NCBI GenBank assembly: GCA_947175045.1
Contig: CAMWLH010000028.1
Location: 1 to 12,476, forward strand
Length of the DNA stretch: 12,476 nucleotides
Direction: 5' to 3'
Source: an uncultured Clostridia bacterium
Lineage (GTDB): Bacteria > Bacillota > Clostridia > Oscillospirales > Ruminococcaceae
The notes under the pieces are model-generated. The model was not told the DNA's origin. It worked only from the letters and a program-made list of their open reading frames with translations, and searched no databases. Positions 1 through 12,476 of the stretch are shown piece by piece; position 1 is the stretch's first letter; the number at the start of each line of letters is the position of its first letter. The translations under genes and the position numbers were made by a program.

Positions 1-10
1 GATATGGACA

Positions 11-514
11 ATGTCGACTAACGAAAAAAAGGGCGTTACCGTCAAGATTGATGCGGATTTGCACGCTGAAGTCAGGCGGTACATTGAAGAACACGCAATG
101 ACGATGGGAGACTTTGTAAGCATGGCACTTCAGGACGAGCTCCACCCAAAACTTAATATTCAGGAGGTCAAAACTATGGGCAATATGAGAACGATGGCGT
201 TTCAGGTGCCGGAGGAGCTATTCCAAAAGATCAAAGACTATTTGCAGCGCAACAATATGACTCAGAAGCAGTTTGTGATTGGGCTGATCGAAAACGAAAT
301 CGAGCGTGATCTGGCACAGCGACAAACAGTAAGCGAAACGCCAACAGATTCCGAGGAAGTAGAGGAACAACCCGAGGAACGGGAAAGCACCGATTTTTCG
401 GACGATTTCGACGGTGAGAATGAGGAATACGAAAATCCCGAGGAGGATGAAGATTTGGACGAAAGCGAGGATCAAGACGAGTCCGAGGAAATGGGAATGG
501 CTATGAGTATGTAA
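11..514 (+). CDS. Tandem ribbon-helix-helix protein with acidic tail, mobile-element type
   Basis: The 167-residue protein has two ribbon-helix-helix-like segments. Residues about 8-47 have a short beta strand (VTVKID) followed by two helices, and residues about 59-98 repeat the plan (MRTMAFQVPEELF, then a helix ending VIGLIENEI). The tail from about residue 105 is almost entirely Asp/Glu and ends MGMAMSM. RHH proteins bind DNA as dimers through the strand. From memory, proteins of this architecture occur in conjugative elements of Clostridia, where their role is not settled; accessory DNA-processing or regulation is inference. Only ten bases precede the ATG, so its ribosome site cannot be judged. 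A frame reading to a stop at 19-21 may be the end of an upstream gene overlapping this start. A strong internal AGGAGG (162-167) lies seven bases before an in-frame ATG at 175, so a 113-residue form with only the second RHH and the acidic tail may also be made. Confidence 0.75.
   Translation: MSTNEKKGVTVKIDADLHAEVRRYIEEHAMTMGDFVSMALQDELHPKLNIQEVKTMGNMRTMAFQVPEELFQKIKDYLQRNNMTQKQFVIGLIENEIERDLAQRQTVSETPTDSEEVEEQPEERESTDFSDDFDGENEEYENPEEDEDLDESEDQDESEEMGMAMSM
162..177 (+). promoter_or_regulatory. Internal Shine-Dalgarno and in-frame start codon
   Basis: AGGAGG at 162-167, a seven-base spacer and ATG at 175-177 form an ideal initiation site inside the RHH gene, exactly between its two RHH segments. 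It could start a short isoform, or it could mark the ancestral start of the second RHH gene before fusion to the first. Confidence 0.5.
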
Positions 515-522
515 AAAAGACC

Positions 523-551
523 TTGACATTTATATTGTAATATATTATAAT
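523..551 (+). promoter_or_regulatory. Consensus sigma-A promoter reading rightward
   Basis: TTGACA (523-528) and TATAAT (546-551) are separated by 17 bp, a perfect consensus. Transcription would start near 558, just past the RHH stop codon. No intact gene lies downstream on the plus strand before the convergent comEA, so the product would be a short RNA running into the long palindrome and perhaps the transposase remnant. Confidence 0.7.
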
Positions 552-621
552 GTAAATAATAGAATATTGGCGTTTTTGATTGTGGGAAGAAAAAATCTTT
601 TTTGTCAGTGTTTCACAACTA

Positions 622-699
622 ATTGTTACCAAAAAGATATTATGCCCACAAACGGCTGTGCAAAGCCATTTGTGGGCATAATATCTTTTTGGTAACAAT
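622..699. repeat. Near-perfect 36-bp inverted repeat (long hairpin)
   Basis: Arms 622-657 and 664-699 are complementary at 35 of 36 positions (the exception is 653 against 668), with a six-base loop at 658-663. The arms begin and end ATTGTTACC/GGTAACAAT. The hairpin is not followed by a T-run on either strand, so it does not look like a simple intrinsic terminator. A degenerate third copy of the right-arm core (TTGTGGG...ATCTTTTT) lies at 580-604. It could be a palindromic MITE-like insertion, an end structure of the integrative element, or a structured RNA made from the promoter at 523-551. Confidence 0.85.
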
Positions 700-707
700 A
701 TAATAGC

Positions 708-747
708 TTCCCCGACTGGACTTGAACCATTGACCCCTGATTAACAG
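708..747 (-). pseudogene. 3'-half fragment of a tRNA-Asn(GTT) gene, attachment-site-like scar
   Basis: Read on the minus strand from 747 to 708, the sequence starts with the anticodon loop CTGTTAA (GTT, Asn). It continues with the 3' anticodon stem TCAGG, a short variable loop, the T-arm with TTCAAGT loop and CCAGT, and a 3' acceptor strand CGGGGAA. The 5' half (D-arm and 5' acceptor) is missing: bases right of 747 do not pair with it. The T-stem carries a mismatch (AATGG against CCAGT) and no CCA is encoded, so the fragment is decaying. Partial tRNAs running from the anticodon loop to the 3' end are the usual duplicated core left by tyrosine-recombinase elements that integrate in tRNA genes. 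Confidence 0.65.
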
Positions 748-782
748 AAAGAAACTCAACCACTATTGAACATCATAGCACA

Positions 783-1182
783 AGAACGCGGTATTGTTCA
801 CACCAAATTCAGACAAAAATCAGGACTGTAGAATTATTCAGGCAAACGCATGATGTTGAACACGTTATTCGCAAGTACCCCGTCGGCAGAGCGTCTGTGT
901 GCGTTGGAGCAAACGGTATGATGACACGCGTGAATCTTGGAACAGCACCCAAACTCCCACACCGAGCAGTAACTCAAGTGGATAAAAGACTGTTGCAGAC
1001 GCAATCCAAACTTCTATATATGCGAGCTGTACGGCAAGCCGCGAGAGGACAGCGCCTACTCGCGACATCCGGGTTGGCTGTGTCGCGTGTTTATACGGCT
1101 GGGAACGAGGAAAAAGCCCGAATCTACAAAGAAGAAAAGCCGCCGCTTGGGCAAATTGGAAATTATCCGTTGGCATTTGTAA
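783..1182 (+). pseudogene. Truncated, frameshifted DDE (IS481/rve-like) transposase remnant
   Basis: Two reading frames together resemble the N-terminal half of a clostridial DDE transposase. In the frame starting at 783, bases 816-899 give VELFRQTHDVEHVIRKYPVG, the start of a helix-turn-helix. After a frame change near 930, the frame of position 1021 gives HPNSHTEQ, an in-frame stop, LKWIKDCCRRNPN, CELYGKPREDSAYSRHPG, CRVFIRLG and STKKKS, which matches the second helical region that precedes the catalytic core. The DDE catalytic domain is absent: the frame ends in TAA at 1180-1182, directly touching the comEA stop codon on the other strand. Several stops and at least one frameshift make it non-functional. 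The family is assigned from remembered protein resemblance, not a search. Confidence 0.65.
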
Positions 1183-1551
1183 CTAGACGGTAACATGATC
1201 CCGAATTTTTTCGAGCTTTACCTCGCCTATACCCTTGACGTTGATAAGCTCGTCGACCGAGGCGAATTCTCCGTTTTCGGTGCGGTAGTCGATTATTGCC
1301 TGGGCGATCGTGCGGCCGATACCGTCCAGCTTTTTAAGCTCACGAACATTTGCCGTATTTATATTTACGACGAGATCGCTGTCGCTGCTGTTTGAGAAAT
1401 AGATCGTTTCATTTTTGACGCATACCGTTGTGCCGTGAAAAAGATTATACAGCGACATTGCGGCAAGGACTGCCACCAGCAAAGCCTTGGCCGAGAGCTT
1501 AAGAATGATTTTCGTGTCATTTTTCATTACGGGTTCGGGAACGACAGTCAT
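1183..1551 (-). CDS. comEA: ComEA-type helix-hairpin-helix DNA-binding protein
   Basis: The 122-residue protein has one N-terminal membrane segment (about residues 15-38) and a C-terminal ComEA domain (about 62-122). The domain has NINTAN, then LDGIGRTIAQAIIDYR and LINVKGIGEVKLEKI, the paired helix-hairpin-helix motifs. ComEA binds double-stranded DNA at the outer face of the membrane for uptake through the ComEC channel. This short form lacks the SLBB/ligand domain seen between anchor and HhH in many Firmicutes. No comEC, comEB or other competence gene is in the window. The ATG at 1551 has no good ribosome site directly before it. The AGGAGG further upstream fits a three-codon upstream ORF instead, and an internal ATG at residue 9 (MKND) is another possible start. 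It has its own promoter. Confidence 0.88.
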   Translation of the reverse strand: MTVVPEPVMKNDTKIILKLSAKALLVAVLAAMSLYNLFHGTTVCVKNETIYFSNSSDSDLVVNINTANVRELKKLDGIGRTIAQAIIDYRTENGEFASVDELINVKGIGEVKLEKIRDHVTV

Positions 1552-1558
1552 CTGTCAT

Positions 1559-1580
1559 TTACCGACGCATTCACACCTCC
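1559..1580 (-). promoter_or_regulatory. Shine-Dalgarno with three-codon upstream ORF (MRR-stop) before comEA
   Basis: On the minus strand AGGAGG is followed at five bases by ATG (1570-1568), then CGT CGG TAA. The comEA ATG (1551) begins seven bases after this stop and is in another frame, and an in-frame TGA blocks extension of comEA up to the AGGAGG. Translation of comEA may therefore depend on reinitiation after this mini-ORF. Confidence 0.4.
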
Positions 1581-1600
1581 TCTTTAGATAACCTGACCTA

Positions 1601-1629
1601 ATTATAACATAATAAAAGAGGAAAATCAA
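1601..1629 (-). promoter_or_regulatory. comEA promoter
   Basis: On the minus strand TTGATT (1629-1624) and TATAAT (1606-1601) are spaced by 17 bp, and transcription would begin near 1594. The -35 box begins at the last base of the terminator stem of the upstream acetyltransferase gene, so terminator T-tract and promoter share bases. Confidence 0.65.
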
Positions 1630-1662
1630 GCCCGACGCCTGCTGCTTAGCCGGCGTCGGGCT
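1629..1662 (-). terminator. Intrinsic terminator after the acetyltransferase cassette
   Basis: The 11-bp perfect stem AGCCCGACGCC (1629-1639) / GGCGTCGGGCT (1652-1662) has a 12-base loop. On the minus strand it is followed by TTGATTTTCC, a T-rich but interrupted tract. It lies 20 bases past the acetyltransferase stop codon. Confidence 0.75.
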
Positions 1663-1681
1663 CATTTGCGTTGTTATGTTT

Positions 1682-2314
1682 TTATTCTGTTTCCCGCTCA
1701 AACAGGAAGTCCTTTTTGTAAATAGTGTCGTTCTCCGTGATCTTCCTTATAACTCTGCATGGATTACCCGCGGCGAAAACGCCTGAGGGTATATCGCGGG
1801 TAACCACGCTCCCCGCGCCTATCACCGAGCCTTCCCCTATGGTGACCCCGCCGCATATCGTAACGTTCCCCGCTATCCAGCAGCCGTCCTTTACGGTTAT
1901 GGGAGCCGCGTACTCCAGGTCGTAGGGAGTTCCGTCGGATTTAACGCGCATCTTCCTTTCCTCCGCAAGCAGCGGGTGGATAGGCGTAAGTATTGAGCAG
2001 TTCGGTCCGAAAAACACGTCGTTCCCTATCGTAACGGGACAACTGTCCAGCACGGTAAGGTTGAAGTTTGAATAGCAGTTCCTGCCGAATGACGTGAAAA
2101 CTCCGTAATCGAAAATAATGGGCGAAGTGAGTGCCGTTCCATCTCCAAGGTCGGGAATAAGCCGCCGCAAGATATCCGCGCGCTTTTCCTCCTCGTCCTC
2201 GTAGGTGTCGTTGAAATCCTTGCACAGACGGTGAGCCGTAAGACGCTTTTCGGTAAGCTCTTTGTCTGAGGGATCGTAGATCATTCCTTTAAGCATTTTT
2301 TCCTGTTCTGTCAT
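1682..2314 (-). CDS. Maltose/galactoside-type O-acetyltransferase, left-handed beta-helix
   Basis: This 210-residue protein is about the usual length of the Maa/LacA/NodL family, which transfers acetyl from acetyl-CoA to a sugar hydroxyl in the cytoplasm. Residues 1-55 are the helical N-terminal Mac domain (EKMLKGMIYDPSD, LRRLIPDLG). Residues about 60-185 are hexapeptide repeats forming the beta-helix (VTIGNDVFFGPNC, ITVKDGCWIAGNVTICGGVTIG, SVIGAGSVVTRDIP). His113 in TPIHPL matches the catalytic histidine. The end IPSGVFAAGNPCRVIR is typical. The ATG is preceded by AAGGAGA at a good distance. It is the last gene of a cassette with a GNAT enzyme and a P-loop kinase. The true acceptor cannot be told from sequence. 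Confidence 0.9.
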   Translation of the reverse strand: MTEQEKMLKGMIYDPSDKELTEKRLTAHRLCKDFNDTYEDEEEKRADILRRLIPDLGDGTALTSPIIFDYGVFTSFGRNCYSNFNLTVLDSCPVTIGNDVFFGPNCSILTPIHPLLAEERKMRVKSDGTPYDLEYAAPITVKDGCWIAGNVTICGGVTIGEGSVIGAGSVVTRDIPSGVFAAGNPCRVIRKITENDTIYKKDFLFERETE

Positions 2315-2326
2315 TATAGTTCTCCT

Positions 2327-2380
2327 TTACAATGTCTCGGAAAATATCCGCTGAAGTACTTCGCTTACGCTGTCGTTCAC
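2327..2380 (-). CDS. Possible 17-residue small ORF
   Basis: Between the kinase and the acetyltransferase, minus-strand AGGAGG is followed after four bases by GTG (2380-2378) and 17 codons reading MNDSVSEVLQRIFSETL, then TAA. This TAA runs directly into the ribosome site of the acetyltransferase (TAAAGGAG). The kinase stop likewise runs into this ORF's ribosome site. The tight stop/SD tiling on both sides favours translation. It may be a coupling leader, a small protein, or the remains of a deleted gene. No family is recognised. Confidence 0.45.
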   Translation of the reverse strand: MNDSVSEVLQRIFSETL

Positions 2381-2390
2381 TTTTCCTCCT

Positions 2391-2870
2391 TTACTCGTTT
2401 ACAACTATGTCTATCTCACCCTCGTCGGGAGCTTCAAAAATCGAAGCGAATTTCCGGGCGAGATTTTCGTCCACATAATACGCGTCGGTTTTGCCCTCTT
2501 TAACAAGGGCGTTCCTTTTAGCCAGGCGCTGCGCCCAAGTCTCCTCGCTTATGCTTATGCAGCGGAGCTCGCACTTTATATTCCGAGCCGCGTAAAATTC
2601 CCGCGCGTATTTACGCTCCGCCTTAGTCCAGAAGCCCCAGTCGAGGATCACATCTATTCCCGCGCCGATAAACTCCACTGACTTACTGAAAAGGTATTTT
2701 TTGGTTCTCTCCACATATTCATCATGCTTGTCCCCGACGTGCTGTCCGAACATCGCAAGCATTATCTCGTCGACGGAGAGCACCGCCGCGCTGTTTTCGG
2801 CGCGCAGCCGCTGCGCGTAGGTGCTCTTGCCGCAGCATATTTTACCGCATATCATAATGACCTTTGCCAT
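2391..2870 (-). CDS. AAA_33-type P-loop kinase/ATP-binding protein
   Basis: The 159-residue single-domain protein begins MAKVIMICGKICCGKST. The Walker A motif is G9-x4-G14-K15-S16-T17, unusual for carrying Cys12-Cys13. SVDE (32-35, Asp34) would be the substrate or general-base region, VILDWGFW (74-81) is a Walker B-like strand, and WAQRLAKRN (112-120) is a LID-type arginine helix. This layout is that of small ATP-dependent kinases related to polynucleotide kinase, zeta toxin and antibiotic phosphotransferases, often annotated only as AAA family ATPase. The substrate is unknown. It starts nine bases after the GNAT stop codon, so the genes are co-transcribed. Context suggests small-molecule modification, which is inference. 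Confidence 0.85.
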   Translation of the reverse strand: MAKVIMICGKICCGKSTYAQRLRAENSAAVLSVDEIMLAMFGQHVGDKHDEYVERTKKYLFSKSVEFIGAGIDVILDWGFWTKAERKYAREFYAARNIKCELRCISISEETWAQRLAKRNALVKEGKTDAYYVDENLARKFASIFEAPDEGEIDIVVNE

Positions 2871-2879
2871 AAAGACCTC

Positions 2880-3308
2880 CTAAGACCCGAGCTTCTTTTT
2901 AAGGTAATATCGACAATGCCCCTCGGGGCAGTCCTCCAGTGTTCCGAATATCTCATATCCATGCTTAATGTAGAAATCCTTTGCTTGAAAATCAAAGGTG
3001 TCAAGATGGATAAGCGAGCAGTTTTCCTTTACCGCGATATCCTCTGTCTCTTTCAGCAGCCTTGACCCCAGACCGCTTTTCCGATGTGCTTCATCGACCC
3101 ACAGCACGTCTACCCATGCGATATTCCAGCAGTAGATCTCCGCAACGCAGCCCGCTATGACATTGCCGTTTTCGTCCACGATTTTTCTGCTTATATCAAT
3201 GAAATTTTCACACTGAACGCGTGGAACCTGACGCAGATTATATTCGACCAGGCTGCCGCATATAAAATCGATCTCGCTGTCGGTGCAGCTTTTTATTTCA
3301 AAATTCAT
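2880..3308 (-). CDS. GNAT family N-acetyltransferase
   Basis: The 142-residue protein starts at MNFEIKSCTDSEIDF. The ATG at 3308 is preceded by AAAGGA at seven bases and lies downstream of a clear promoter, so a longer in-frame extension starting at 3419 is rejected because it would begin upstream of that promoter. Acetyl-CoA-binding motif A is VDEAHRKSGLGSRLL (71-85, with R76-K-S-G79-L-G81), and motif B is DFYIKHGYEIFG (111-122). It transfers acetyl from acetyl-CoA to an amine; the acceptor cannot be deduced. It is the first gene of the GNAT-kinase-O-acetyltransferase cassette. Confidence 0.9.
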   Translation of the reverse strand: MNFEIKSCTDSEIDFICGSLVEYNLRQVPRVQCENFIDISRKIVDENGNVIAGCVAEIYCWNIAWVDVLWVDEAHRKSGLGSRLLKETEDIAVKENCSLIHLDTFDFQAKDFYIKHGYEIFGTLEDCPEGHCRYYLKKKLGS

Positions 3309-3366
3309 CGGTGTATCCTTTCGGCGCTGCTGTTTTTGTTTACATATGAACCATAATTTCGGTATT

Positions 3367-3395
3367 ATTATATCATACAATACCCGTAAAGTCAA
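3367..3395 (-). promoter_or_regulatory. Promoter of the GNAT-kinase-acetyltransferase cassette
   Basis: On the minus strand TTGACT (3395-3390) and TATAAT (3372-3367) are separated by 17 bp. The predicted start near 3360 gives a leader of about 50 bases before the GNAT ATG. Confidence 0.75.
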
Positions 3396-3403
3396 CACAG
3401 CGC

Positions 3404-3445
3404 AAAAATTCCCCCGCACAGCTAAATGCCGCGCGGGGATTTTTT
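3404..3445. terminator. Bidirectional intrinsic terminator
   Basis: AAAAATTCCCCCGC (3404-3417) pairs with GCGCGGGGATTTTTT (3431-3445), apart from one mismatch and a one-base bulge. This gives a GC-rich stem flanked by A- and T-tracts on both strands. It ends the ABC permease transcript, which stops at 3456 on the minus strand, and insulates the cassette promoter just downstream. Confidence 0.8.
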
Positions 3446-3455
3446 AGGCAGCTCC

Positions 3456-4316
3456 CTAAAACTCGGGCTTATCCTCCTGGTTGTTGATCTTTTTGGCGTT
3501 AAGCACCGCATACGCCATAAAGAACATCAGCACCATCACAACAAGCGAAAGCACCGTGCCCACGCATATGCTGGCGATATTCTCCGAAAGCTCAAAACCG
3601 CCGATGAACATCTCTCCCGTAACCAGCGCTCTTAGCGTAAAGGGGTGGAATTTTGTAAGGTCAAGGCTGGTGAGTATCAGTTCAACAAGAGTCGTTCCCA
3701 AATACACAAGCACCGTTACCACGCCCGGCTTACTGGTGCAAAGCCCTATCGATAGGTAGACCGTGGTGATAAACGCCGCGTAGACCGCGCAGAGCAGCGC
3801 CGCAAGAAACAGCATTCCTATTCCGATCTTTCCCTCGCTGAACAGCATATTGCACAGCCCGCCCGCGGTCAGCGACGCCAGGAACGTTCCGCCGAAAACC
3901 GTCAGCGGATAGATCACGAATTTCGGCACAAGGTAGTTGAAGTATTTCAGCCCGCAGCAGGCGGGGATTATCGTCGCACGCTTTTTCTGCTCGCCGCCCG
4001 CCGGAGACATCAGTATCAGCATTATTATCAGCAGCGATGTCGCGCACAGATCGCCCATTGTCAGCGCGAACACCATCCCTGCGTCGTTTATCATTCCCGA
4101 GACCATCTCGACGGACTCCATGCCGGCAGACATAGTCATCGCCAATGCCATCTGGGGGTACTCCATATTGCTCATATATTCAAGCATTACGTTCAGCAGC
4201 ATATACATAAGCGGGTCTGCCAGTACGAACGAGAATATCGCTATCAGAATGCCGCCGAAGCGGAACGTCCGCAAAAACTGGAACCATTCCTTTTTAAATC
4301 CGTATTTTATCTGCAT
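3456..4316 (-). CDS. ABC-2-type transporter permease
   Basis: The 286-residue membrane protein has about six hydrophobic segments: near 22-46 (GGILIAIFSFVLADPLMYML), 80-110, 132-155, 165-190, 197-213 and 254-278. It has a short cytoplasmic N-terminus and a charged C-terminus (NNQEDKPEF). Size and layout fit the membrane subunit of a two-component ABC-2 exporter. Its ATG follows the ATPase TAA with no intervening base (TAAATG), so translation is coupled to that of the ATPase. A Met-rich stretch (MALAMTMSAGMESVEMVSGM) sits in a periplasm-facing or loop region. The substrate is unknown; antimicrobial peptide or lipid export would be guesses from family size. Confidence 0.8.
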   Translation of the reverse strand: MQIKYGFKKEWFQFLRTFRFGGILIAIFSFVLADPLMYMLLNVMLEYMSNMEYPQMALAMTMSAGMESVEMVSGMINDAGMVFALTMGDLCATSLLIIMLILMSPAGGEQKKRATIIPACCGLKYFNYLVPKFVIYPLTVFGGTFLASLTAGGLCNMLFSEGKIGIGMLFLAALLCAVYAAFITTVYLSIGLCTSKPGVVTVLVYLGTTLVELILTSLDLTKFHPFTLRALVTGEMFIGGFELSENIASICVGTVLSLVVMVLMFFMAYAVLNAKKINNQEDKPEF

Positions 4317-5204
4317 TTAACCCACCACCTTTCCGAATACCTCTTCCAAGGTTGCCGTGCCTATGCTGAAGCTCTCCGCGACAATATCATTGTCCGTCAT
4401 CAGCCGCATTAGCCGTTTTGCGGTGTCCTCCGCGTTCTCCGTTCCGAATCTGAACAAGTCCTCATCGTTATTGTATTCCGCGCGGGCAAAATCCACCGAC
4501 AGCAGCTTTATCTTGTTTTCCTGCGTCAGCCCTCTTACGGTGAGATTTATCACGTCGCCGCCCTGATTTCTCAGCAGCTCCTTAAGGCTGCCCTCCTCGG
4601 CAAGAGTACCGTTTTTCATAATGCCTATGCGGTTAGCTACACGCTCCACGTCCGAGAGGATATGCGTTGAAAGGGCTATCGTGCAGCCCATCGCCTTCAG
4701 GCGGTTGATTATCGCGATGACTTCCGCGCGTCCCTGCGGGTCAAGCGCGGAGGTAGGCTCGTCGAAAATAAGCAGCTCGGGGTTGCCGAGTATCGCCGCG
4801 CCCATTCCCAGGCGCTGGGTCATGCCGCGGGAAAATCCCTTTGCGCGCTGATTCGCGGCGTGCGTCAGCCCGATAACGTCAAGAACCTCTGCGACGCGCC
4901 TGTTCACATCGCCCTCCCATTCGGTGCAGGCAGCTATATATTCGAGGTACTCCCTCGCTGTCATATAGCCGTATATCATGGGGCTCTCGGGGAGATATCC
5001 GACCTTGATCGGCTTTCCGTTTCCCAGGGTTATCTCGCCCTCGTCCTTGGGGATTATGTTGCAGATTATATTCATAGTGGTGGTCTTTCCGCAGCCGTTG
5101 CGCCCAAGAAATCCGTATACGTCGCCGTCCTCGATATTCATGCTCAGACCGTTGAGAACCGGTATCGCGCCGTATTTTTTGCGAAGATCGCGTATTCTTA
5201 CCAT
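4317..5204 (-). CDS. ABC transporter ATP-binding protein
   Basis: The 295-residue nucleotide-binding subunit energises the permease encoded directly after it. Walker A is GRNGCGKTT (34-42), the signature is FSRGMTQRL (124-132, a variant of LSGGQ), Walker B is LLIFDEP (144-150) with Glu149 as likely catalytic base, and the switch histidine is in STHIL (His181). The Q-loop position reads YLPESP, with Glu in place of Gln, as is common in the CcmA/YtrB-like drug and peptide exporter ATPases. Residues after about 215 form the family's C-terminal extension. The ATG follows an AAAGGGA ribosome site. The promoter is immediately upstream. No GntR/YtrA regulator is adjacent. Confidence 0.92.
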   Translation of the reverse strand: MVRIRDLRKKYGAIPVLNGLSMNIEDGDVYGFLGRNGCGKTTTMNIICNIIPKDEGEITLGNGKPIKVGYLPESPMIYGYMTAREYLEYIAACTEWEGDVNRRVAEVLDVIGLTHAANQRAKGFSRGMTQRLGMGAAILGNPELLIFDEPTSALDPQGRAEVIAIINRLKAMGCTIALSTHILSDVERVANRIGIMKNGTLAEEGSLKELLRNQGGDVINLTVRGLTQENKIKLLSVDFARAEYNNDEDLFRFGTENAEDTAKRLMRLMTDNDIVAESFSIGTATLEEVFGKVVG

Positions 5205-5253
5205 ATCATTTCCCTTTCCTTTTCAGTCATATCTGTTAATATTCGATATATAC

Positions 5254-5299
5254 AGTTTAACTCATATAGCTTGATTTGTCAAGGGCTTTTTTATTTTTT
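5254..5299 (-). promoter_or_regulatory. Promoter of the ABC exporter operon with A-tract UP element
   Basis: On the minus strand TTGACA (5282-5277), a 17-bp spacer and TAAACT (5259-5254) form a good promoter with a weaker -10 box. Two A-tracts directly upstream (complement of 5287-5299) resemble an UP element. A partial dyad CTGT...ACAG (5233-5254) straddles the start region and could be an operator. Confidence 0.6.
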
Positions 5300-5396
5300 T
5301 CTCAAAAAACCTCAAATATGTTGCCGACGGGTTTAATTTATGTTGACGAGAAGCTGTTATACTACAGGGCTTTGCAGCTCAATTTTGTTTGCCCCT

Positions 5397-5804
5397 TTAA
5401 TGCGTGGGTTTTATGCCGCTGTTTTTCTCTTCGGTTCTATATTTCAGAATATCCCACGCCGCCGCGACAGCTCCGCCGACAGCGTAGCAAATCAAGTCTT
5501 TGAAATCAAATGTCGAACCCAGTATCACCGCGAGAACGCTCCCCACATGATCCGATATATCCGTAAGCTGAATAAGCTCCACAGCAAAGGCGAGAGCGGT
5601 CACCCAAACCGACAAAAAACGCGGCTTGTTCACAAATACGATACGAGCTCCGCAGTAGACCGTCACCACCGCCAGAACGTCCCCGAGATAGGGGCGCACG
5701 AAGCTGTCGTGAACAAAAAGCGCTATCAGTACCTCAACGCCCAGCAGCACAGCGAACGCCGCCGCGTACAACAGCCTTTTGCGTATGGCGCGCCGCCCGC
5801 TCAT
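5397..5804 (-). CDS. DUF2809 family membrane protein
   Basis: The 135-residue protein starts MSGRRAIRKRLLYAAAF. The ATG at 5804 overlaps the radA TGA (ATGA) and has AGGGGAG before it, so the longer frame starting at 5939 inside radA is rejected. A basic N-terminus precedes about four to five hydrophobic segments (10-30, 39-57, 62-80, 83-95, 101-118). The motifs YLGDVLAVVTVYCGAR, ELIQLTD and HVGSVLAVILGSTFDFKDL, with paired Asp/Glu in membrane segments, are those of the DUF2809 family of unknown function. It is translationally coupled to radA, though a link to DNA repair is not established. I see no convincing terminator after it. Confidence 0.85.
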   Translation of the reverse strand: MSGRRAIRKRLLYAAAFAVLLGVEVLIALFVHDSFVRPYLGDVLAVVTVYCGARIVFVNKPRFLSVWVTALAFAVELIQLTDISDHVGSVLAVILGSTFDFKDLICYAVGGAVAAAWDILKYRTEEKNSGIKPTH

Positions 5805-7195
5805 GTGGAGCTCCCCTGCGGCTTTTTCTCGGCGGCTATGGCGCGGAACGCCTGCTCGAGAGTATTCGCGCCGATTATCTGTATACCGTAGCCCTCCGCC
5901 CTGCTGAGGGAAGAAAAGGACTGCTTGGGGATAATGCACTTTTCAAAGCCCAGACGCGCACCCTCCTTGACCCTCTCGCGGACGTGGGATACGGCTCGTA
6001 TCTCTCCGCCAAGCCCGACCTCGCCGAATACCATAAGCTTGTCGGGGATTATCTTGTCGCACAGCCCCGAGTAAAGCGCCATAGCTACCGCGAGATCGGC
6101 GGCGGGCTCGTCGACACGCAGCCCCCCCACGATGTTGACATACACGTCGACCCCGCCAAAAAAGAAGCCAGTGCGCTTTTCCAACACCGCCAGCAGCATA
6201 TACAGCCTGTTGTAGTCAAAGCCGGTAGCCACGCGGCGCGGCGCGGAGAGGTTGGACTTTGTCACCAGCGCCTGCACCTCCGCAAGAATGGGGCGGGTAC
6301 CCTCCACGGTGCACACCACGGCGCTCCCCGAAATGCTTTTCAGCCGCCCCGACAGCATCATCTCCGACGGGTTCGATACCTCTTTAAGTCCGTCGTCGTC
6401 CATATTGAAAACGCCTATCTCGTTGGTGGAGCCGAAGCGATTCTTGATCGCCCTTAAAATACGGTAGGAAAGCTGCTTTTCGCCCTCGAAATACAAAACC
6501 GTGTCCACTATATGCTCCATGATCTTCGGACCCGCTATGCCGCCGTCCTTATTAACATGGCTGACGATAAATACGGGGATCTCCTCGCTTTTAGCCATTC
6601 TCATAAACGCGTTGGTGCACTCCCTCACCTGCACTATGCTTCCTGCCGAGGACGCCGCGGAGGCGGTCGTGATGGTCTGTATGGAATCTATTATAACTAT
6701 CTCGGGCTTGTTGGAGCATACCGCGTGGATAATGCTCTCGCAGCTGTTGTTGCTGGCGAGGAAAAGATTATCGGAGTTTACTCCGAGACGCTCCGCCCGC
6801 AGCTTTATCTGGCGCTCGCTTTCCTCGCCCGAAACGTACAGAATGGTGTGATCGTTCCCCATAAACCCGCATATTTGCAGCAGCAGAGTGGATTTCCCTA
6901 TCCCCGGGTCGCCGCCTATAAGCACAAGCGAGCCCTTTACAAGCCCGCCGCCGAGCACTCTGTCAAGCTCGGATATGCCCGTGCCGTAGCGAGTTTCGTC
7001 ATCGTAGCTTATCTCGCCTATCCTGCTGTATTTAAATTCCCCGGCGGGAACGGCAGCGCGCCCGCCGCTTCCCACCACGACGGGCGTTGATTCTTCAATG
7101 GCGTTCCACGCGCCGCAGGCGGTGCAGCGCCCGTTCCATTTGGGATATTCCTGTCCGCACTCGCGGCAGATAAACAATGTCCTCGGTTTAGCCAA
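5801..7195 (-). CDS. radA: DNA repair protein RadA
   Basis: The 464-residue RadA promotes branch migration of recombination intermediates with RecA and acts in repair and natural transformation. A C4 zinc finger comes first (Cys10, Cys13, Cys24, Cys27). It is followed by a RecA-like ATPase with Walker A GGDPGIGKST (94-103), Walker B EIVIIDSIQ (165-173) and the RadA-specific KNRFG (251-255), and then a Lon-like C-terminal domain. The chosen start is the TTG at 7195, ten bases after GGAGG and giving MAKPRT at the usual family position. The in-frame ATG at 7285 lies upstream of the promoter and cannot be used by that transcript. Length agrees with the family (about 455-460). It overlaps the downstream DUF2809 gene by four bases. 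Confidence 0.96.
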   Translation of the reverse strand: MAKPRTLFICRECGQEYPKWNGRCTACGAWNAIEESTPVVVGSGGRAAVPAGEFKYSRIGEISYDDETRYGTGISELDRVLGGGLVKGSLVLIGGDPGIGKSTLLLQICGFMGNDHTILYVSGEESERQIKLRAERLGVNSDNLFLASNNSCESIIHAVCSNKPEIVIIDSIQTITTASAASSAGSIVQVRECTNAFMRMAKSEEIPVFIVSHVNKDGGIAGPKIMEHIVDTVLYFEGEKQLSYRILRAIKNRFGSTNEIGVFNMDDDGLKEVSNPSEMMLSGRLKSISGSAVVCTVEGTRPILAEVQALVTKSNLSAPRRVATGFDYNRLYMLLAVLEKRTGFFFGGVDVYVNIVGGLRVDEPAADLAVAMALYSGLCDKIIPDKLMVFGEVGLGGEIRAVSHVRERVKEGARLGFEKCIIPKQSFSSLSRAEGYGIQIIGANTLEQAFRAIAAEKKPQGSST

Positions 7196-7240
7196 AGCAG
7201 TTGAACCTCCAAAATCATCGGTCTGCAAGTATGCACCTTT

Positions 7241-7269
7241 ATTATACTCCGTTTCGGAGGTTTTGTCAA
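7241..7269 (-). promoter_or_regulatory. radA promoter with inverted repeat in the spacer
   Basis: TTGACA (7269-7264), 17 bp and TATAAT (7246-7241) form a perfect consensus on the minus strand. The spacer holds the perfect inverted repeat CTCCG-TTT-CGGAG (7247-7259), placed where a bound repressor would block RNA polymerase. The start site would be near 7234. Confidence 0.8.
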
Positions 7270-7311
7270 TCGGGTGTTGGGGCACGGCGCTTGAGTCGCT
7301 GCGCTGAACGT

Positions 7312-8175
7312 TTATCTCCGATTGAGCCGTCTGTATTCTTTGGGGGTGCAGCCCACGATTCTTCTGAATTGTCTGTTGAAATTTGAAATATTCTTAAAGC
7401 CGCATTCAAAAGCGATCTCCGCAGCGGTTTTGTCTGTTGCGCACAGCAGCTCGCAGGCTTTCTTCAGCCTTATTTGGGACAGATATTCTATCGCGCTCCC
7501 GCCCGACGTTTCCTTGAATCGTCGCATAAAATAGCTTTTGCTCAGGTGAGCTATCTCCGCGAGCCGTTCCACGGTTATATTTTCCGAGAAATTATCGTTC
7601 ATATATTCTATGGCGGGACGTATCGCTTCGCTTCGGCTTATCGTATTCTCGGAGGTTCGGGTAATATCTCCGCTTTCCCGCAGCAGCCAAAAGAACCGCA
7701 GCAGCTCGCTTTTCATCAGCATATCGAGCTGCGCGGTATTCCCCTTTGCACAGGAAAAAATATTCTCCGCCGTGGTTTTAAGCTCGCCGTAATAAATATG
7801 CTCTTTTGTGATATGGGTATTTACCCTTGATCCCCCGTTTGAAAGAGGCTTTATACATTCCGCGGCGCAGCGGTCGCTGTCCGACGCTCCCAGCATTTCG
7901 GGACTGAACACGATGGTGTCGTAAAGCTGTTTGTTATCCCCGTGCGGACAGATCGCATGAAGCATATTCGGCGGGATTACAACTATATCTCCCTCCTCCG
8001 AAACGAATCTGCCGTCGCCGCAGATAAATTCGGCGCAGCCCGAAATTACCAGATTTATCTCAAATTCGCCGTGCCAATGCAAAGGTACGCTTGCGAAATA
8101 ATCCGGGATAAGGCATTTGTAATAACTGAACGGAACAAGCCGCGAGCTGTGCTGCTTTTTTTCCTCAGAGGTCAT
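7312..8175 (-). CDS. AraC family transcriptional regulator
   Basis: The 287-residue protein has an N-terminal cupin sensor (about 15-110, with HWHGEFEI at 33-40 and GDIVVIPPNMLHAI at 62-75) and a C-terminal AraC DNA-binding domain (about 185-285). The latter has two helix-turn-helix units: VERLAEIAHLSKSYFMRRFK and IAFECGFKNISNFNRQFRR, ending GCTPKEYR. Members of this kind usually sense a sugar and activate nearby catabolic genes. It is divergent from the GH13 gene, sharing a 154-bp spacer, and is its most likely regulator. The ATG has GGGAGGGA before it. A TATAAT (8202-8197) without a good -35 box suggests a weak or activated promoter. No clear terminator separates it from the radA promoter. 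Confidence 0.93.
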   Translation of the reverse strand: MTSEEKKQHSSRLVPFSYYKCLIPDYFASVPLHWHGEFEINLVISGCAEFICGDGRFVSEEGDIVVIPPNMLHAICPHGDNKQLYDTIVFSPEMLGASDSDRCAAECIKPLSNGGSRVNTHITKEHIYYGELKTTAENIFSCAKGNTAQLDMLMKSELLRFFWLLRESGDITRTSENTISRSEAIRPAIEYMNDNFSENITVERLAEIAHLSKSYFMRRFKETSGGSAIEYLSQIRLKKACELLCATDKTAAEIAFECGFKNISNFNRQFRRIVGCTPKEYRRLNRR

Positions 8176-8213
8176 TTTATCCCTCCCGATAAAAGTATTA
8201 TAGTATCACAAAA

Positions 8214-8256
8214 GCGTATTATTATGCTTGATTTTCGCGTTATTTTATAGTATTAT
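8214..8256 (+). promoter_or_regulatory. GH13 gene promoter with candidate AraC-type direct repeats
   Basis: TTGATT (8228-8233), 17 bp and TATTAT (8251-8256) drive the GH13 gene. Two similar 12-mers, GCGTATTATTAT (8214-8225) and GCGTTATTTTAT (8237-8248), match at 9 of 12 positions and start 23 bp apart, roughly the two-turn spacing of AraC-family half-sites. The first precedes the -35 box and the second fills the spacer. The operator role is inference. Confidence 0.5.
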
Positions 8257-8329
8257 ATCATATGGGAATACTTTTTTCAAGTATTTGCGGCAGACCGACC
8301 CCAAAATTTATCGAGAAAGGAACCTTATT

Positions 8330-9886
8330 ATGAGCAACAACCAGCCCGCGTGGCTTGACAACGCGATTTTTTACGAGATCTATCCCCAGTCATTCTGCGA
8401 CAGCAACGGCGACGGGATAGGAGATTTCAACGGCATAATCGGCAAGTTGGACTACATAAAGGAGCTTGGCTGCAACGCCATCTGGATGAACCCCTGCTTT
8501 GAATCGCCCTTCGGCGACGCGGGGTACGACGTTTCCGATTATTATTCCGCCGCGCCGCGCTACGGCACGAACGAGGACTTAAAGCGGCTTTTTGAGGAAG
8601 CTCACAAGCGCGGAATGCACGTATTGCTCGACCTTGTTCCGGGGCACACCTCGGTCGAGCACAAGTGGTTCAAGGAATCGATGAAAGCGGAAAGGAATCC
8701 CTATACCGACCGCTACGTCTGGACGGACGACATATGGGAGTCGCCGGAAGGCATGGGCTGCATACGCGGTATTTCCGACAGAGACGGCTCCTGCGCGGTG
8801 AATTTTTTCTCGCACCAGCCCGCGCTGAATTACGGCTTTTACAAGCCCGACCCGGATAAGAAGTGGCAGCAGTCCATGGACAGCGAGGGTGCGAGAGCTA
8901 CCCTCGAGGAGCTGAAAAATATCATGCGCTTCTGGCTGGGAATGGGCTGCGACGGCTTCCGTGTGGATATGGCGGGATCGCTGGTAAAGCACGACGAGAA
9001 CGGCAAGGGAACCATAAAATTGTGGCAGAACGTCCGCGAGTTTTTAGACAGGGAATTTCCGCAGGCGGCAATGGTCTCCGAATGGGGCGAGCCCGACAAG
9101 TCCCTGCAGGGCGGTTTTCATATGGACTTTCTGCTGCACTTTGGACCGTCGCACTATAACGATCTGTTCCGCTGCGCCGAACCGTTCTTCTCAACGCGCG
9201 GCAAGGGTGACGTTTCCGAGTTCGTGAAAAAATATCTCGAAAGCTACGAAAAATCGGAGAAAAAGGGGCTTATGTGCATACCCTCGGGAAACCACGATAT
9301 GGACAGACTTGCCCGCGGCGTTTTCGGGAACGATCTGAAAATCGCCTTTGCGTTTTTGCTGTCGATGCCCGGTGCGCCGTTCATCTATTACGGCGATGAG
9401 ATCGGTATGCGGTATGTTGAGGGTCTGACCTCGGTCGAGGGAGGATACGGCAGAACGGGCTCGCGCTCGCCCATGCAGTGGGACGATTCCACAAACGCGG
9501 GATTCAGCGCCGCGCCTGCGGAAAAGCTCTACATAAAGCTCGACGACAGACCCGGCCGTCCCACGGTAAAGGCGCAGGCATTCGACGAGGACTCCCTTTA
9601 TAATGAAATAAAGCGGCTTATAGCCGTCCGCCAGTCCCGCGCCGCTTTGCAGAGCCGCGGTGAGATAGAGTTCCTGTTCGCGGAAAAGAACGCCTATCCG
9701 CTTGCATACCTGAGAAGCGCGGGCAGCGAGAAAATTCTTGTGATAATAAACCCCGCCGACAGAGAAGTGACGTTCGGCTGCGAATATTCCCTTAAAGAGA
9801 AAATATATTCGATAGGAAACGGACTCTCTGTCAATAACGGAAATATCACCGTTCCGCCCCGATTTGCGGGATTTTATGAGGTGTGA
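8330..9886 (+). CDS. GH13 alpha-amylase family enzyme (alpha-glucosidase-like)
   Basis: The 518-residue retaining glycoside hydrolase acts on alpha-glucosidic bonds. The ATG at 8330 follows AAAGGA at eight bases and gives the typical start WLDNAIFYEIYPQSF; an upstream ATG at 8228 lies within the promoter and is rejected. Visible GH13 features are a calcium-site-like DSNGDGIGD (24-32), region I DLVPGHTS (101-108), region II GFRVDMA with nucleophile Asp213, region III VSEWGEP with acid/base Glu251, and region IV SGNHD with Asp323. Region I has Gly where many GH13 enzymes have Asn. A small beta domain closes the protein (EKILVIINPADREVTF). No signal peptide is seen, so it acts in the cytoplasm on imported maltodextrin or glucosides. 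Exact specificity (alpha-glucosidase, trehalose-type or amylase) is not decidable by eye. Its 3' end overlaps the convergent sirtuin gene by 13 bp. Confidence 0.93.
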   Translation: MSNNQPAWLDNAIFYEIYPQSFCDSNGDGIGDFNGIIGKLDYIKELGCNAIWMNPCFESPFGDAGYDVSDYYSAAPRYGTNEDLKRLFEEAHKRGMHVLLDLVPGHTSVEHKWFKESMKAERNPYTDRYVWTDDIWESPEGMGCIRGISDRDGSCAVNFFSHQPALNYGFYKPDPDKKWQQSMDSEGARATLEELKNIMRFWLGMGCDGFRVDMAGSLVKHDENGKGTIKLWQNVREFLDREFPQAAMVSEWGEPDKSLQGGFHMDFLLHFGPSHYNDLFRCAEPFFSTRGKGDVSEFVKKYLESYEKSEKKGLMCIPSGNHDMDRLARGVFGNDLKIAFAFLLSMPGAPFIYYGDEIGMRYVEGLTSVEGGYGRTGSRSPMQWDDSTNAGFSAAPAEKLYIKLDDRPGRPTVKAQAFDEDSLYNEIKRLIAVRQSRAALQSRGEIEFLFAEKNAYPLAYLRSAGSEKILVIINPADREVTFGCEYSLKEKIYSIGNGLSVNNGNITVPPRFAGFYEV

Positions 9887-10743
9887 CCAAGCACTTCGGC
9901 TATATCCCCGTCAATAAGAATTGCCCGCGCGGCTATCTCGCGCGGGCAGCTTGCTTCGCCGAGATTCACGCAAGCGTATACCGCGCGCGGGTTTGCGGCG
10001 GTGAGCTGCCAAAACGGGTATTTAATTATTGCCGGAGTGTTATAGCCCACCCCGAGCTCCAGATACAGCACGCGCGAATTTTTCCGCGAGCGGATAAAAT
10101 CCGAGTAACGCTCCGCTGCCCTGTGCCAGCCCTCGTCCTCCGCGAAGCCGTCGTCGGCGCGCAGATTCATTGTCAGCGGCTTTCCGCAGTGAGGGCATTT
10201 CGGCAGCAGCTCGGACGGTATCCTCATATCGCATTGCCGCTCATACATCTCTCTAATAATTTCTTCATTATCATAGGTTTCTTGGCGGCAGGGCGCGGAG
10301 CACTGAAACAGCCCGTAATCCCCCTGCGTGTAAAACAATCGTTTTTTATCAAATCCCGACTTCTGAAAGCAGTGATCGACGTTTGTGGTTATCACAAAAT
10401 AATCCTTGCTTCTTACAAGCGAAAACAAGGTGCGATAAACGGGCTCTGGCGGCTCGGAGTAACGGTTTATCATTATATATCTGCTCCAGTATGCCCAAAA
10501 CTCCTCGTCGCTCTCAAAGGGATAAAATCCCCCCGAATACATATCGTGAAATCCGTATTTTTCCTCGAAATCCGCGAAATTCTTGCGAAACCTCTCACCC
10601 GAATAGGTGAACCCCGCCGCTGTCGAAAGCCCCGCTCCCGCGCCTATCACTACCGCGTCGGCGGCTTTCAGGGCGGCTTTCAGGCGCTCAATTTCCGCAG
10701 AGTAATTGCTTGTAGATCGCGCAGTCATCGTCCTTGAACACAT
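9874..10743 (-). CDS. Class M sirtuin (SirTM), predicted protein ADP-ribosyltransferase
   Basis: The 289-residue Sir2-fold protein has the NAD-binding motif VIGAGAGLSTAAGFTY (32-47) and TTNVDHCFQKSG (119-130, Asn121). At the place of the classical catalytic His (HGN) it reads FYTQGDYG, with Gln140. A zinc site is Cys148, Cys152, Cys183 and Cys186. Gln for His and the SGGFYPF and NLRADDGF segments are marks of SirTM, described as NAD-dependent protein ADP-ribosyltransferases rather than deacylases; this gene's activity is inferred from that family. The ATG at 10743 has GAGGTGA six bases upstream, so the gene starts inside the macrodomain gene with 56 bp of overlap. A second ATG (residue 6) has AAGGA only two bases before it. 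In described operons SirTM modifies a GcvH-like lipoyl carrier, which is not present here. Confidence 0.9.
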   Translation of the reverse strand: MCSRTMTARSTSNYSAEIERLKAALKAADAVVIGAGAGLSTAAGFTYSGERFRKNFADFEEKYGFHDMYSGGFYPFESDEEFWAYWSRYIMINRYSEPPEPVYRTLFSLVRSKDYFVITTNVDHCFQKSGFDKKRLFYTQGDYGLFQCSAPCRQETYDNEEIIREMYERQCDMRIPSELLPKCPHCGKPLTMNLRADDGFAEDEGWHRAAERYSDFIRSRKNSRVLYLELGVGYNTPAIIKYPFWQLTAANPRAVYACVNLGEASCPREIAARAILIDGDIAEVLGHTS

Positions 10744-11458
10744 TGAATATCACCTCGATATCGGAATTGCCTTGCAGAAATTCGCTCACTGTTTTGACTG
10801 CAATCTCCGCGGCTTTTTTGTTGGGAAAATGAAATTCTCCCGTTGAGATACAACAGAACGCAATGCTTGAGATACCGTTTTGCACAGCCGTTTTCAGGCA
10901 CTCGCGGTAACAGGCTTCAAGCTGTTCGCAATGCGTTTGCGTGAGCGTTCCTCCGACATACGGTCCTACCGTATGGATAATTTTATAGCAGGGCAGATTA
11001 TACGCGCCGGTTATTTTCGCCCTGCCTATCGGCTCCTCAAAGCCCTGCTTGCGCATTATCTCCGCGCACTCCATGCGCAATTGTACTCCCGCAAAGGTGT
11101 GTATCGCGTTGTCTATGCAGCCGTGACACGGGCAGAAGCAGCCGAGCATCGCGGAGTTCGCAGCGTTGACTATCGCGCCGCACTGAAGCGTCGTTATATC
11201 TCCCTGCCACAGGTAAATCCGCGGTTTTATTGGGGTCAGAGCCTTGTAGTCCACAACGCCCTTTGAGGCGGTCTTTTCTTTAAGAAACTCGTCCTGTATC
11301 GTGAGAAATTCCTCCGAAACGGGCTTCGGAGCGCGCACGTTCGCAAGACCGCGGAACAGCCGGAACCCTTCCTCCGCGCTTTCGGGAATTTTGAAGTTTT
11401 CATAGTCCGCATTCTCATGCAGAAGATATTTTATCAGGTAGTTTAACTTGTCTGTCAT
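10688..11458 (-). CDS. Zinc-type macrodomain protein, predicted ADP-ribosyl hydrolase
   Basis: The 256-residue protein has a helical N-terminal region (about 1-70) that contains FRLFRGLANVRAP, typical of SirTM-linked macrodomains. A macrodomain follows (about 78-255): GDITTLQCGAIVNAANSAM (86-104), a Cys/His-rich loop GCFCPCHGCIDNAIH (106-120: Cys107, Cys109, Cys111, His112, Cys114), IIHTVGP (150-156) and ISTGEFHFP (184-192). The Cys/His loop corresponds to the zinc-bound catalytic loop of Zn-macrodomains, which remove ADP-ribose placed by the partner sirtuin. Four Cys plus His is a rich set, and which ones bind zinc cannot be settled by eye. The ATG has AAAGGAG six bases upstream and lies 26 bp after the MBL-like gene. 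It is the reversal enzyme of the pair and overlaps the sirtuin start. Confidence 0.92.
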   Translation of the reverse strand: MTDKLNYLIKYLLHENADYENFKIPESAEEGFRLFRGLANVRAPKPVSEEFLTIQDEFLKEKTASKGVVDYKALTPIKPRIYLWQGDITTLQCGAIVNAANSAMLGCFCPCHGCIDNAIHTFAGVQLRMECAEIMRKQGFEEPIGRAKITGAYNLPCYKIIHTVGPYVGGTLTQTHCEQLEACYRECLKTAVQNGISSIAFCCISTGEFHFPNKKAAEIAVKTVSEFLQGNSDIEVIFNVFKDDDCAIYKQLLCGN

Positions 11459-11484
11459 AGCGCGCTCCTTTGCCGTTTGCGATC

Positions 11485-12279
11485 TTATTTGCCGAAGAAA
11501 AATCCCGCTGTCATTTCGAGGTAATTTTCGCCGCCGTAATTTGGATATTCGGCTTTGACCGTGGTCTTGAACTCCTCCGCATTTTTGCAGGCCGCGGCGA
11601 TGGCTTTCAGATTTTTGAGGTAATCTATCTTGGTCTGCGCGTCCTTTAAGTCCTCGGGGGTGTAGTGCGAGGTAAGTATAAGATCGTACCCCCTGCCAAT
11701 ATAGTCGTTAAGCTGCTCTATGACCGCGTCCGCGTGCGCCGCTCCCGTAATTATGGAATGGCAGTCGTGCCCCAGCATATGAGTATACACCGCGTTTATT
11801 TCGGGTATCTCCACATCAAACGCGTCGGGCGTCTGAGTGATGATAAAGTCTATTCCGCCAACGGTTATTTTCCCCTCGCCGATAATGTTTGTGATCTTGT
11901 GTACCGAGCTGTCAAAAGCGCTGCCGAATGCACCCGCGAAGTTGTCGATCAGTGCTTTTCCGCCGCCGTGCTCGGAATATTCCCGCGCGTTTTCGGTAGC
12001 GTATTTGGGAACGTCGGGCAGGAAAGAAGCTCCCGCACCGTGATACGCAACGAATATTCCCTCGGTCTTAAACGGCGAGAGATACTCCGCAAGCTCCGCG
12101 CAGTTGTCGAAAAAGCAGGGAGGCTCTATCACAACGGCGCTCCCGTTCTTTTCAACAACGAAAACCTCGTCGTTTATAAGATCGTTGGTCTTGTGGGCGT
12201 GGAGCTTTACCGCGCCGAAATCGTATACGTTTACTTCGCCTTTCGTGAGCTTTACTGTCTCGAATGTGTTCTTGTTCAT
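11485..12279 (-). CDS. Metallo-beta-lactamase-fold-like protein lacking the usual metal motif
   Basis: The 264-residue protein starts MNKNTFETVKLTKGEVNVYDFG. The ATG at 12279 follows AAGGAGG at eight bases, while a start at 12342 would lie at the promoter's -10 box and is rejected. The strand pattern (NDEVFVVEKNGSAVVIEPPCFFDN, then TEGIFVAYHG, then ITVGGIDFIITQTPDAFDV and INAVYTHMLGHDCHS) recalls the MBL fold. Where active members have HxHxDH it reads YHGAGAS (79-85), so only one His is kept. A later HMLGHDCH (177-184) and SHY (204-206) could still hold a metal. The function is unknown: a degenerate hydrolase, a binding protein or a differently metallated enzyme are all possible. It is the first gene of the operon with the macrodomain and SirTM genes. 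Confidence 0.75.
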   Translation of the reverse strand: MNKNTFETVKLTKGEVNVYDFGAVKLHAHKTNDLINDEVFVVEKNGSAVVIEPPCFFDNCAELAEYLSPFKTEGIFVAYHGAGASFLPDVPKYATENAREYSEHGGGKALIDNFAGAFGSAFDSSVHKITNIIGEGKITVGGIDFIITQTPDAFDVEIPEINAVYTHMLGHDCHSIITGAAHADAVIEQLNDYIGRGYDLILTSHYTPEDLKDAQTKIDYLKNLKAIAAACKNAEEFKTTVKAEYPNYGGENYLEMTAGFFFGK

Positions 12280-12337
12280 TATAATATCCTCCTTAAAAAC
12301 ATCGGAAGAATAAAGCGCTTTCTCTTTCCTTGATATT

Positions 12338-12366
12338 ATCATAACACATTTTGCGGCGGCTGTAAA
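12338..12366 (-). promoter_or_regulatory. Promoter of the MBL-like/macrodomain/SirTM operon
   Basis: On the minus strand TTTACA (12366-12361), 17 bp and TATGAT (12343-12338) lie ahead of the MBL-like gene, giving a leader of about 50 bases. The -35 and -10 boxes each deviate by one base from consensus. Confidence 0.65.
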
Positions 12367-12388
12367 GTACGCACTTTTTTAAAACATA

Positions 12389-12408
12389 GTTACTTTTATG
12401 TTACTTTT
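12389..12408. repeat. Pair of 9-bp direct repeats between divergent promoters
   Basis: GTTACTTTT occurs at 12389-12397 and 12400-12408, starts 11 bp apart and so on the same face of the helix. The pair lies about 20 bp upstream of the operon's -35 box and about 35 bp upstream of the rightward promoter's -35, a position suited to a shared regulator. Confidence 0.5.
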
Positions 12409-12443
12409 GCTTGGCGGAGGGAAATATTCATAAAAAAATTTTC

Positions 12444-12472
12444 TTGACTTTTTGGCGGCAATATATTATAAT
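12444..12472 (+). promoter_or_regulatory. Strong promoter reading rightward out of the window
   Basis: TTGACT (12444-12449), 17 bp and TATAAT (12467-12472) differ from consensus at one base. The gene it drives begins beyond the window. Confidence 0.7.
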
Positions 12473-12476
12473 TTAA

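Follow-up and report, generated by a model that had tools for sequence, protein, structure and literature searches.

The stretch of DNA analysed here, called the window below, comprises positions 1 to 12,476 (12,476 nucleotides) of contig CAMWLH010000028.1 from an uncultured gut bacterium of the Clostridia, family Ruminococcaceae (assembly GCA_947175045.1). On its minus strand it carries a compact operon encoding, in order, a protein of predicted metallo-beta-lactamase (MBL) fold, a Zn-macrodomain and a class M sirtuin (SirTM). A first-pass annotation made from the sequence had described these three genes as an MBL-like leader, a Zn-type macrodomain and a sirtuin with Gln140, and motifs and alignments confirm that description. 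It did not mention the regulator, the operator or the exchange of modules described below; the rest of its interpretation finds partial support.

The SirTM/Zn-macrodomain pair and its MBL-fold neighbour

The SirTM gene (9874..10743, minus strand; 289 amino acids, aa) encodes a probable mono-ADP-ribosyltransferase in which QG replaces HG at Gln140, with N121 and four probable zinc cysteines. N121 and Q140 agree with the residues characteristic of the class (N118, Q137 and R192 in the reference SpySirTM), and R195 aligns with an arginine of the 5a3a chain, its equation with Arg192 relying on a deduced numbering offset of 10. The genetic linkage to a Zn-macrodomain that also marks the class is present: the macrodomain gene (10688..11458, minus strand; 256 aa) shares 56 bp with the SirTM gene. 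Its product, a probable ADP-ribosyl hydrolase, contains NAAN from residue 98, a Cx4HxC zinc loop at 107–114 (C107–C114) and a D116/H120 dyad; alignment to the 8rsi chain starts at residue 3, indicating that the N-terminal extension is present. Across the loci compared, the zinc motif recurs in 123/123 macrodomains and QG in 122 of 132 SirTMs, the remaining ten being sequences that the pattern did not match. Judged by these motifs, the pair probably attaches and removes ADP-ribose tags.

The first gene of the operon (11485..12279, minus strand; 264 aa) ends 26 bp before the macrodomain gene and is preceded by a ribosome-binding site, AAGGAGG, read from the sequence at 12288..12294 (minus strand). 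An AlphaFold2 model with Foldseek and VIA matches predicts an MBL fold, making the protein a predicted member of the metallo-beta-lactamase superfamily. The classical metal site of this superfamily has the motif HxHxDH; it is absent from the MBL-like protein, which has YHGAGAS at the expected strand end instead. Eight residues are invariant in 49/49 aligned rows (H80, H167, H171, D172, C173, H174, H182 and H205), a conservation pattern that tentatively suggests a new metal site. Searches of the PDB with the protein and with its profile returned nothing credible, nor did a Pfam search at E values up to 10, and neither Pfam nor NCBIfam has a name for the family.

The MBL-like gene is a genuine, recurrent member of the operon. 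Within a set of 61 relatives it occurs exclusively beside macrodomain and SirTM genes (in the window's own genome G000, in G020 and as a relic in G018). Among 295 genomes of the order it is present in nine, all of which have a strong SirTM match (E below 1e-20; found in 62/295), and in eight of the nine the two genes share a contig, separated by no more than about 2 kb. The neighbourhoods of homologues thus preserve the association, a point on which the first-pass interpretation had depended. GTDB-wide, the best 80 of 241 MBL loci, recruited by MBL and fetched with 6 kb of flank, have SirTM and/or the macrodomain at 63, an HxlR-type regulator gene at 68 and the operator box described below at 61. 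An accidental neighbourhood was rejected on the linkage seen in the relatives, the order and GTDB.

MBL genes unlinked to the pair also exist. No SirTM match was found in 14 of the 17 genomes, of unstated completeness, that have such a gene; several of the 17 loci have less than 3 kb of downstream sequence (L212, L261, L263), and L253, from among the three remaining genomes, is the locus of genome G073 discussed below. Because of these 14 genomes, the MBL-like protein probably works without ADP-ribosylation too. Thirteen loci are solo divergent pairs of HxlR and MBL-like genes with neither macrodomain nor SirTM in the stretch (L195, L197, L200, L201, L211, L212, L214, L217, L246, L250, L255, L258 and L263), with the operator box between the two genes in 10/13. 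The function of the MBL-like protein may be easiest to find at these loci.

A probable switch upstream of the operon

The operon promoter (12338..12366, minus strand) consists of TTTACA (12366–12361), a 17 bp spacer and TATGAT (12343–12338) with TG before the second hexamer, matching the consensus at 10/12 positions. Its −35 element is overlapped by a putative operator box, AAAAAGTGCGTACTT (12365..12379, minus strand), of which the own genome has a single copy when up to one mismatch is allowed. Two GTAAC half-sites lie upstream of the box (12389..12404, minus strand), with similar sites at the aligned positions in relatives. A divergent promoter (12444..12472, plus strand; TTGACT, 17 bp, TATAAT; 11/12 consensus matches) is directed off the contig end. 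The promoter scan as a whole gave five promoter-like sites against 2.7 ± 1.6 in shuffled sequences, and the operon promoter region aligns with that of relatives.

In relatives, the next gene is a divergent member of the HxlR family (Pfam PF01638; the nearest NCBIfam model is RrpB, below its cut-off). The own genome has such a gene outside the window, at the start of another contig (G000:C61:32-355, plus strand), whose product is 94% identical to the regulator of G020. Comparison with G020 suggests that the contig break falls beyond the divergent promoter and ahead of the start codon of HxlR; we infer from the same genome that the regulator, with its N-terminal cysteine, adjoins the operon across this break.

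The operator box (10-mer) is found in the interval between HxlR and operon at 88 of 98 non-redundant loci with an interval of up to 1.5 kb. This amounts to 88 sites in 34,830 interval bases, against 8 in 2,031,976 strand-bases elsewhere; the reversed pattern, used as a control, occurs 0 times inside the intervals and twice outside. An N-terminal cysteine motif is present in the HxlR proteins of 104/107 loci, duplicates included. We regard the linkage and the putative operator as well supported by these comparisons. Similar promoter-operators stand ahead of MBL operons, of operons with an ACGX-repeat peptide and of a bare macrodomain-SirTM operon (G028b).

An exchangeable slot between switch and core

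The place taken by the MBL-like gene, between the switch and the macrodomain-SirTM core, is filled differently in relatives: by the MBL-like gene; by an ACGX-repeat ribosomally synthesised and post-translationally modified peptide (RiPP) with a radical SAM enzyme and a nitroreductase; by a PPOX-ferredoxin fusion; by NmrA; by DUF1848; or by nothing. Counts were made in 73 loci with both SirTM and macrodomain, recruited mostly by SirTM and some by MBL (85 loci minus 2 without SirTM and 10 without a macrodomain in the stretch; one duplicate pair, L043/L044, was kept). Modules can be combined, and they comprise PPOX-ferredoxin at 27 loci, rSAM_ACGX at 14, MBL at 10 (including the G018 relic), NmrA at 8, PPOX at 8 and DUF1848 at 5. 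An open reading frame for an ACGX-repeat precursor accompanies 11 of the 14 rSAM loci, among which L132 has a 57-residue piece only and L140 another arrangement. MBL and rSAM_ACGX never coincide in the 73 loci, where about two overlaps would be expected by chance. Nor do MBL (61 loci) and radical SAM (13 loci) overlap in 121 non-redundant SirTM+macrodomain loci (Fisher p 5e-5), drawn from a pool of 165 loci from which 6 duplicates had been dropped; this set is biased by the best 80 of 241 loci, which were recruited by MBL.

Exchange is visible among close relatives of the window's SirTM. In a quick tree of 110 rows this protein falls in a starred clade of eight, four of ACGX type, three of MBL type (one a relic) and one without a module. 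SirTMs 77–83% identical to it stand beside ACGX modules (L030, L031, L033, L035), no module (L034) and an MBL relic (L036). In G018, HxlR, box, macrodomain and SirTM have been kept, with the MBL gene reduced to a short relic.

These patterns bear on the proposal of the first-pass annotation that the MBL-like protein is a partner or substrate of the pair. Its most specific form would make the MBL-fold protein a dedicated substrate replacing GcvH-L, switched off when SirTM ADP-ribosylates it and on again by the Zn-macrodomain. The position of the MBL gene at the head of the same operon, 26 bp from the macrodomain gene, agrees with this, as do the flanking SirTM and/or macrodomain at 63 of the best 80 of 241 GTDB loci, the restriction of MBL to SirTM-bearing genomes among the 295 sampled from the order (9/9) and the many invariant acidic residues of the protein. 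However, operons whose SirTMs are 77–83% identical to that of the window lack an intact MBL gene, SirTM is unmatched in 14 of the 17 genomes with unlinked MBL, again of unstated completeness, and in G073 the two genes are separate. Module swapping and unlinked MBL led us to reject a dedicated substrate as the leading explanation, and we consider it quite unlikely; partnership as recurrent operon membership stands, and the substrate role is weakened.

Several further arrangements were recorded around the slot and the core. At eleven loci (L030, L031, L033, L035, L040, L041, L129, L130, L147, L148 and L183) an ACGX precursor, rSAM_ACGX (TIGR04340) and a nitroreductase, mostly together with PPOX-ferredoxin, lie upstream of the Zn-macrodomain and SirTM. 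Full-length rSAM_ACGX over the cut-off occurs in 11 genomes of the order, ten of which have strong SirTM (Fisher p 7e-7, computed with 61 SirTM genomes), and 5 of 12 rSAM_ACGX copies share a contig with SirTM. DUF1848 genes directly precede the macrodomain gene at L038, L039, L042, L134 and L168. Downstream of SirTM, DUF5131 genes, with a weak match to the radical SAM mobile-pair model, are found at L030, L031, L034, L035, L036, L048, L130, L133 and L136. Three loci, L172, L177 and L178 (G328:C29, G175:C22 and G195:C34), have tandem arrays of two to three divergent SirTM-like sirtuins, 33–41% identical to that of the window; the stretches fetched for them show no macrodomain.

Possible target, proposed stress response and known systems

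SirTM has GcvH-L as its sole known target, and targets of other SirTM/Zn-macrodomain systems have remained elusive, according to the available excerpts of Ariza et al. 2024 (PMC11490716). We looked for a lipoyl carrier in 31 genomes, 30 of them with SirTM (all except G140) and 12 of the window's genus, namely the own genome, which is 78% complete, and 11 SirTM-bearing mates; nine of the 12 are at least 95% complete. GcvH (PF01597) has no match in the own genome or in any of the 12; in the whole set it is matched in 4/31 genomes, over the cut-off in three (G059, G128 and, as a 35-residue stretch, G073). The catalytic domain of LplA/LipB (PF21948) likewise has no match in the own genome and none over the cut-off in the 12, where three weak sub-threshold matches occur; it exceeds the cut-off in 4/31 genomes (G059, G128, G196 and G214). 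None of the eight window proteins searched against Pfam is a GcvH or a lipoate ligase. At the 73 loci, tblastn queries with a single GcvH and a single LplA from G059 picked out no gene next to the pair.

The first-pass observation that the window has no such gene is thus borne out and extends to the own genome. Its suggestion that the carrier is encoded elsewhere goes unsupported, and a GcvH/LplA carrier elsewhere in the genome was rejected as a candidate on the own genome and the 12 of the genus. A GcvH-L/LplA2 locus missed through incompleteness would still make GcvH-L the SirTM target, and the own genome is indeed incomplete, with GcvH present in some members of the order (G059, G128). We nevertheless consider it exceedingly improbable: the genus, with its nine nearly complete genomes, has neither GcvH nor LplA/LipB over the cut-off, GcvH and SirTM lie on different contigs in both G059 and G128, and the search succeeded in 13 of 14 control genomes, a test of GcvH in general and not of GcvH-L in particular.

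With moderate confidence, and from sequence comparison, we propose that the locus is a redox or electrophile (thiol) stress operon with reversible ADP-ribosylation of a non-lipoyl target. Its order would be a divergent HxlR-type (MarR/DUF24-like) regulator, a shared operator over the −35 element, the MBL-fold protein, the Zn-macrodomain and SirTM. Thiol-reactive stress would cause the regulator to release the promoter through its N-terminal cysteine; the MBL-fold protein, like the other slot modules, would handle the reactive compound or the damage it causes; a single ADP-ribose from NAD+ would be placed on a target by SirTM and removed by the Zn-macrodomain once the stress is over. The stress signal, the direction of regulation, the enzyme activities and the target are all inferred. 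The electrophile or disulfide character of the stress is suggested by the nitroreductase, PPOX, ferredoxin-fused PPOX and NmrA genes, all of redox type, that occupy the slot in relatives, and by the thiol-sensing nature of the regulator family. In Bacillus subtilis, HypR, YodB and CatR detect HOCl, quinones and diamide through N-terminal cysteines, and the azoreductase AzoR1 and nitroreductase YodC of these regulons serve detoxification, as described in the available part of PMC6943732. A lipoyl carrier should not be the target, as the searches of the genus revealed none. SirTM changes little although the module next to it is exchanged, so it probably acts mainly on a protein encoded outside the slot; a housekeeping protein and the HxlR regulator are the simplest candidates.

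Several observations weigh against this proposal. B. subtilis HxlR itself is more specific for aldehydes (PMC6943732, same part). A divergent HxlR gene with the box between is found at 40 of the 73 SirTM+macrodomain loci, 43 having the divergent gene; the other 30 have none in the fetched stretch, 20 of them with at least 2 kb upstream, and L140, among the 30, carries HxlR in a different arrangement. No listed module and no nitroreductase is present at 26/73 loci, seven of these near a contig end. With 30 loci lacking the divergent regulator and 26 a listed module, such a switch is frequent but does not occur everywhere. Much of the SirTM tree lacks resolution (49 of 107 inner branches are open), and the sharing of the operator may stem solely from a common origin of the promoter. 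As to the MBL-like gene, the G196 copy has two in-frame stops, and that of G073 lies at a contig end with no macrodomain or SirTM in about 6 kb downstream; the SirTM operon of G073 is on another contig with its own HxlR, box, PPOX-ferredoxin and macrodomain (L095 and L143).

An alternative is an ordinary minimal SirTM/Zn-macrodomain pair, in which the upstream gene would be a stress gene transcribed along with the pair but functionally unconnected with ADP-ribosylation. Lone pairs have been published, the pair stands without any listed module at 26/73 loci, and MBL can occur alone. We find this rather unlikely, as the same promoter-operator precedes bare macrodomain-SirTM (G028b), ACGX and MBL operons, and the modules are repeatedly of redox type, pointing to one shared physiology.

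Compared with known systems, the thiol-stress operon proposed here is built from enzymes of known kinds. The extended SirTM operon of Lactobacillales and Staphylococcaceae (GcvH-L, Zn-macrodomain, SirTM, LplA2, OYE and LLM; excerpts of PMC4518038 and PMC11490716) shares the adjacent homologous writer and eraser, nearby oxidoreductases (here in relatives) and a proposed role in oxidative stress; in contrast, the operon of the window contains neither GcvH-L nor LplA2, no GcvH or LplA/LipB was found in its genome, the MBL-fold gene comes first, and an HxlR-type regulator and shared operator are added. Apart from the upstream MBL-like gene and regulator, it corresponds to the minimal SirTM/Zn-macrodomain operon of Treponema pedis, Enterococcus faecalis and MorMacro, having a carrier-less pair, a Cx4HxC macrodomain and a Q-type sirtuin; the exchangeable module and the cognate regulator and operator go unmentioned in the excerpts of PMC11490716 describing that operon. 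According to these excerpts, a Zn-macrodomain from a minimal pair fails to remove ADP-ribose from SpyGcvH-L. The variant of reversible ADP-ribosylation suggested by the first-pass annotation holds as a pair without carrier and is not itself new, lone pairs having been described in 2015 by Rack et al. (PMC4518038) and in 2024 by Ariza et al., as far as the available excerpts go.

The MarR/DUF24 regulons of B. subtilis (HypR-HypO, YodB-AzoR1/YodC and CatR-CatDE; available part of PMC6943732) share a small regulator with an N-terminal cysteine and nitroreductase-type genes, whereas the operons here combine an ADP-ribosylation pair with an MBL-fold protein or a RiPP cassette. The ACGX RiPP system (TIGR04340 radical SAM enzyme and TIGR04341 precursor in NCBIfam) fills this slot in operons related to that of the window, but no full-length rSAM_ACGX exceeds the cut-off in the own genome. 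Among the matches listed from open-licence PMC articles, neither the arrangement of HxlR, operator, module, macrodomain and SirTM nor a paper on the ACGX RiPP with its radical SAM enzyme (TIGR04340, TIGR04341) or its tie to ADP-ribosylation was found; the operon setting of switch, operator and exchangeable module looks new.

Elsewhere in the window, the short protein encoded at 1183–1551 (minus strand) resembles, by eye, a helix-hairpin-helix DNA-binding protein of ComEA type; scanning the window for Rfam families and tRNAs gave no matches.

The clade allows the question of the SirTM target to be asked without a lipoylation background, as searches of the 12 genomes of the genus found neither GcvH nor lipoate ligase. 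It offers a candidate regulator with its operator, a predicted class of inducers, named strains carrying the operon, among them Massiliimalia massiliensis (locus L262) and Anaeromassilibacillus sp. An250 (L228), and a natural series of operons with a common writer and eraser and one differing slot, and it links the ACGX RiPP family to ADP-ribosylation. We speculate, as a long shot, that the lipoyl carrier has been replaced: the acidic, cysteine-rich ACGX RiPP, matured by its radical SAM enzyme, could be a small redox carrier, ADP-ribosylated by SirTM and released by the Zn-macrodomain, with the MBL-fold protein filling this functional slot in operons of the window type. If so, ADP-ribosylation would act as a general valve for redox carriers that can be exchanged, lipoyl-GcvH-L being just one of them.

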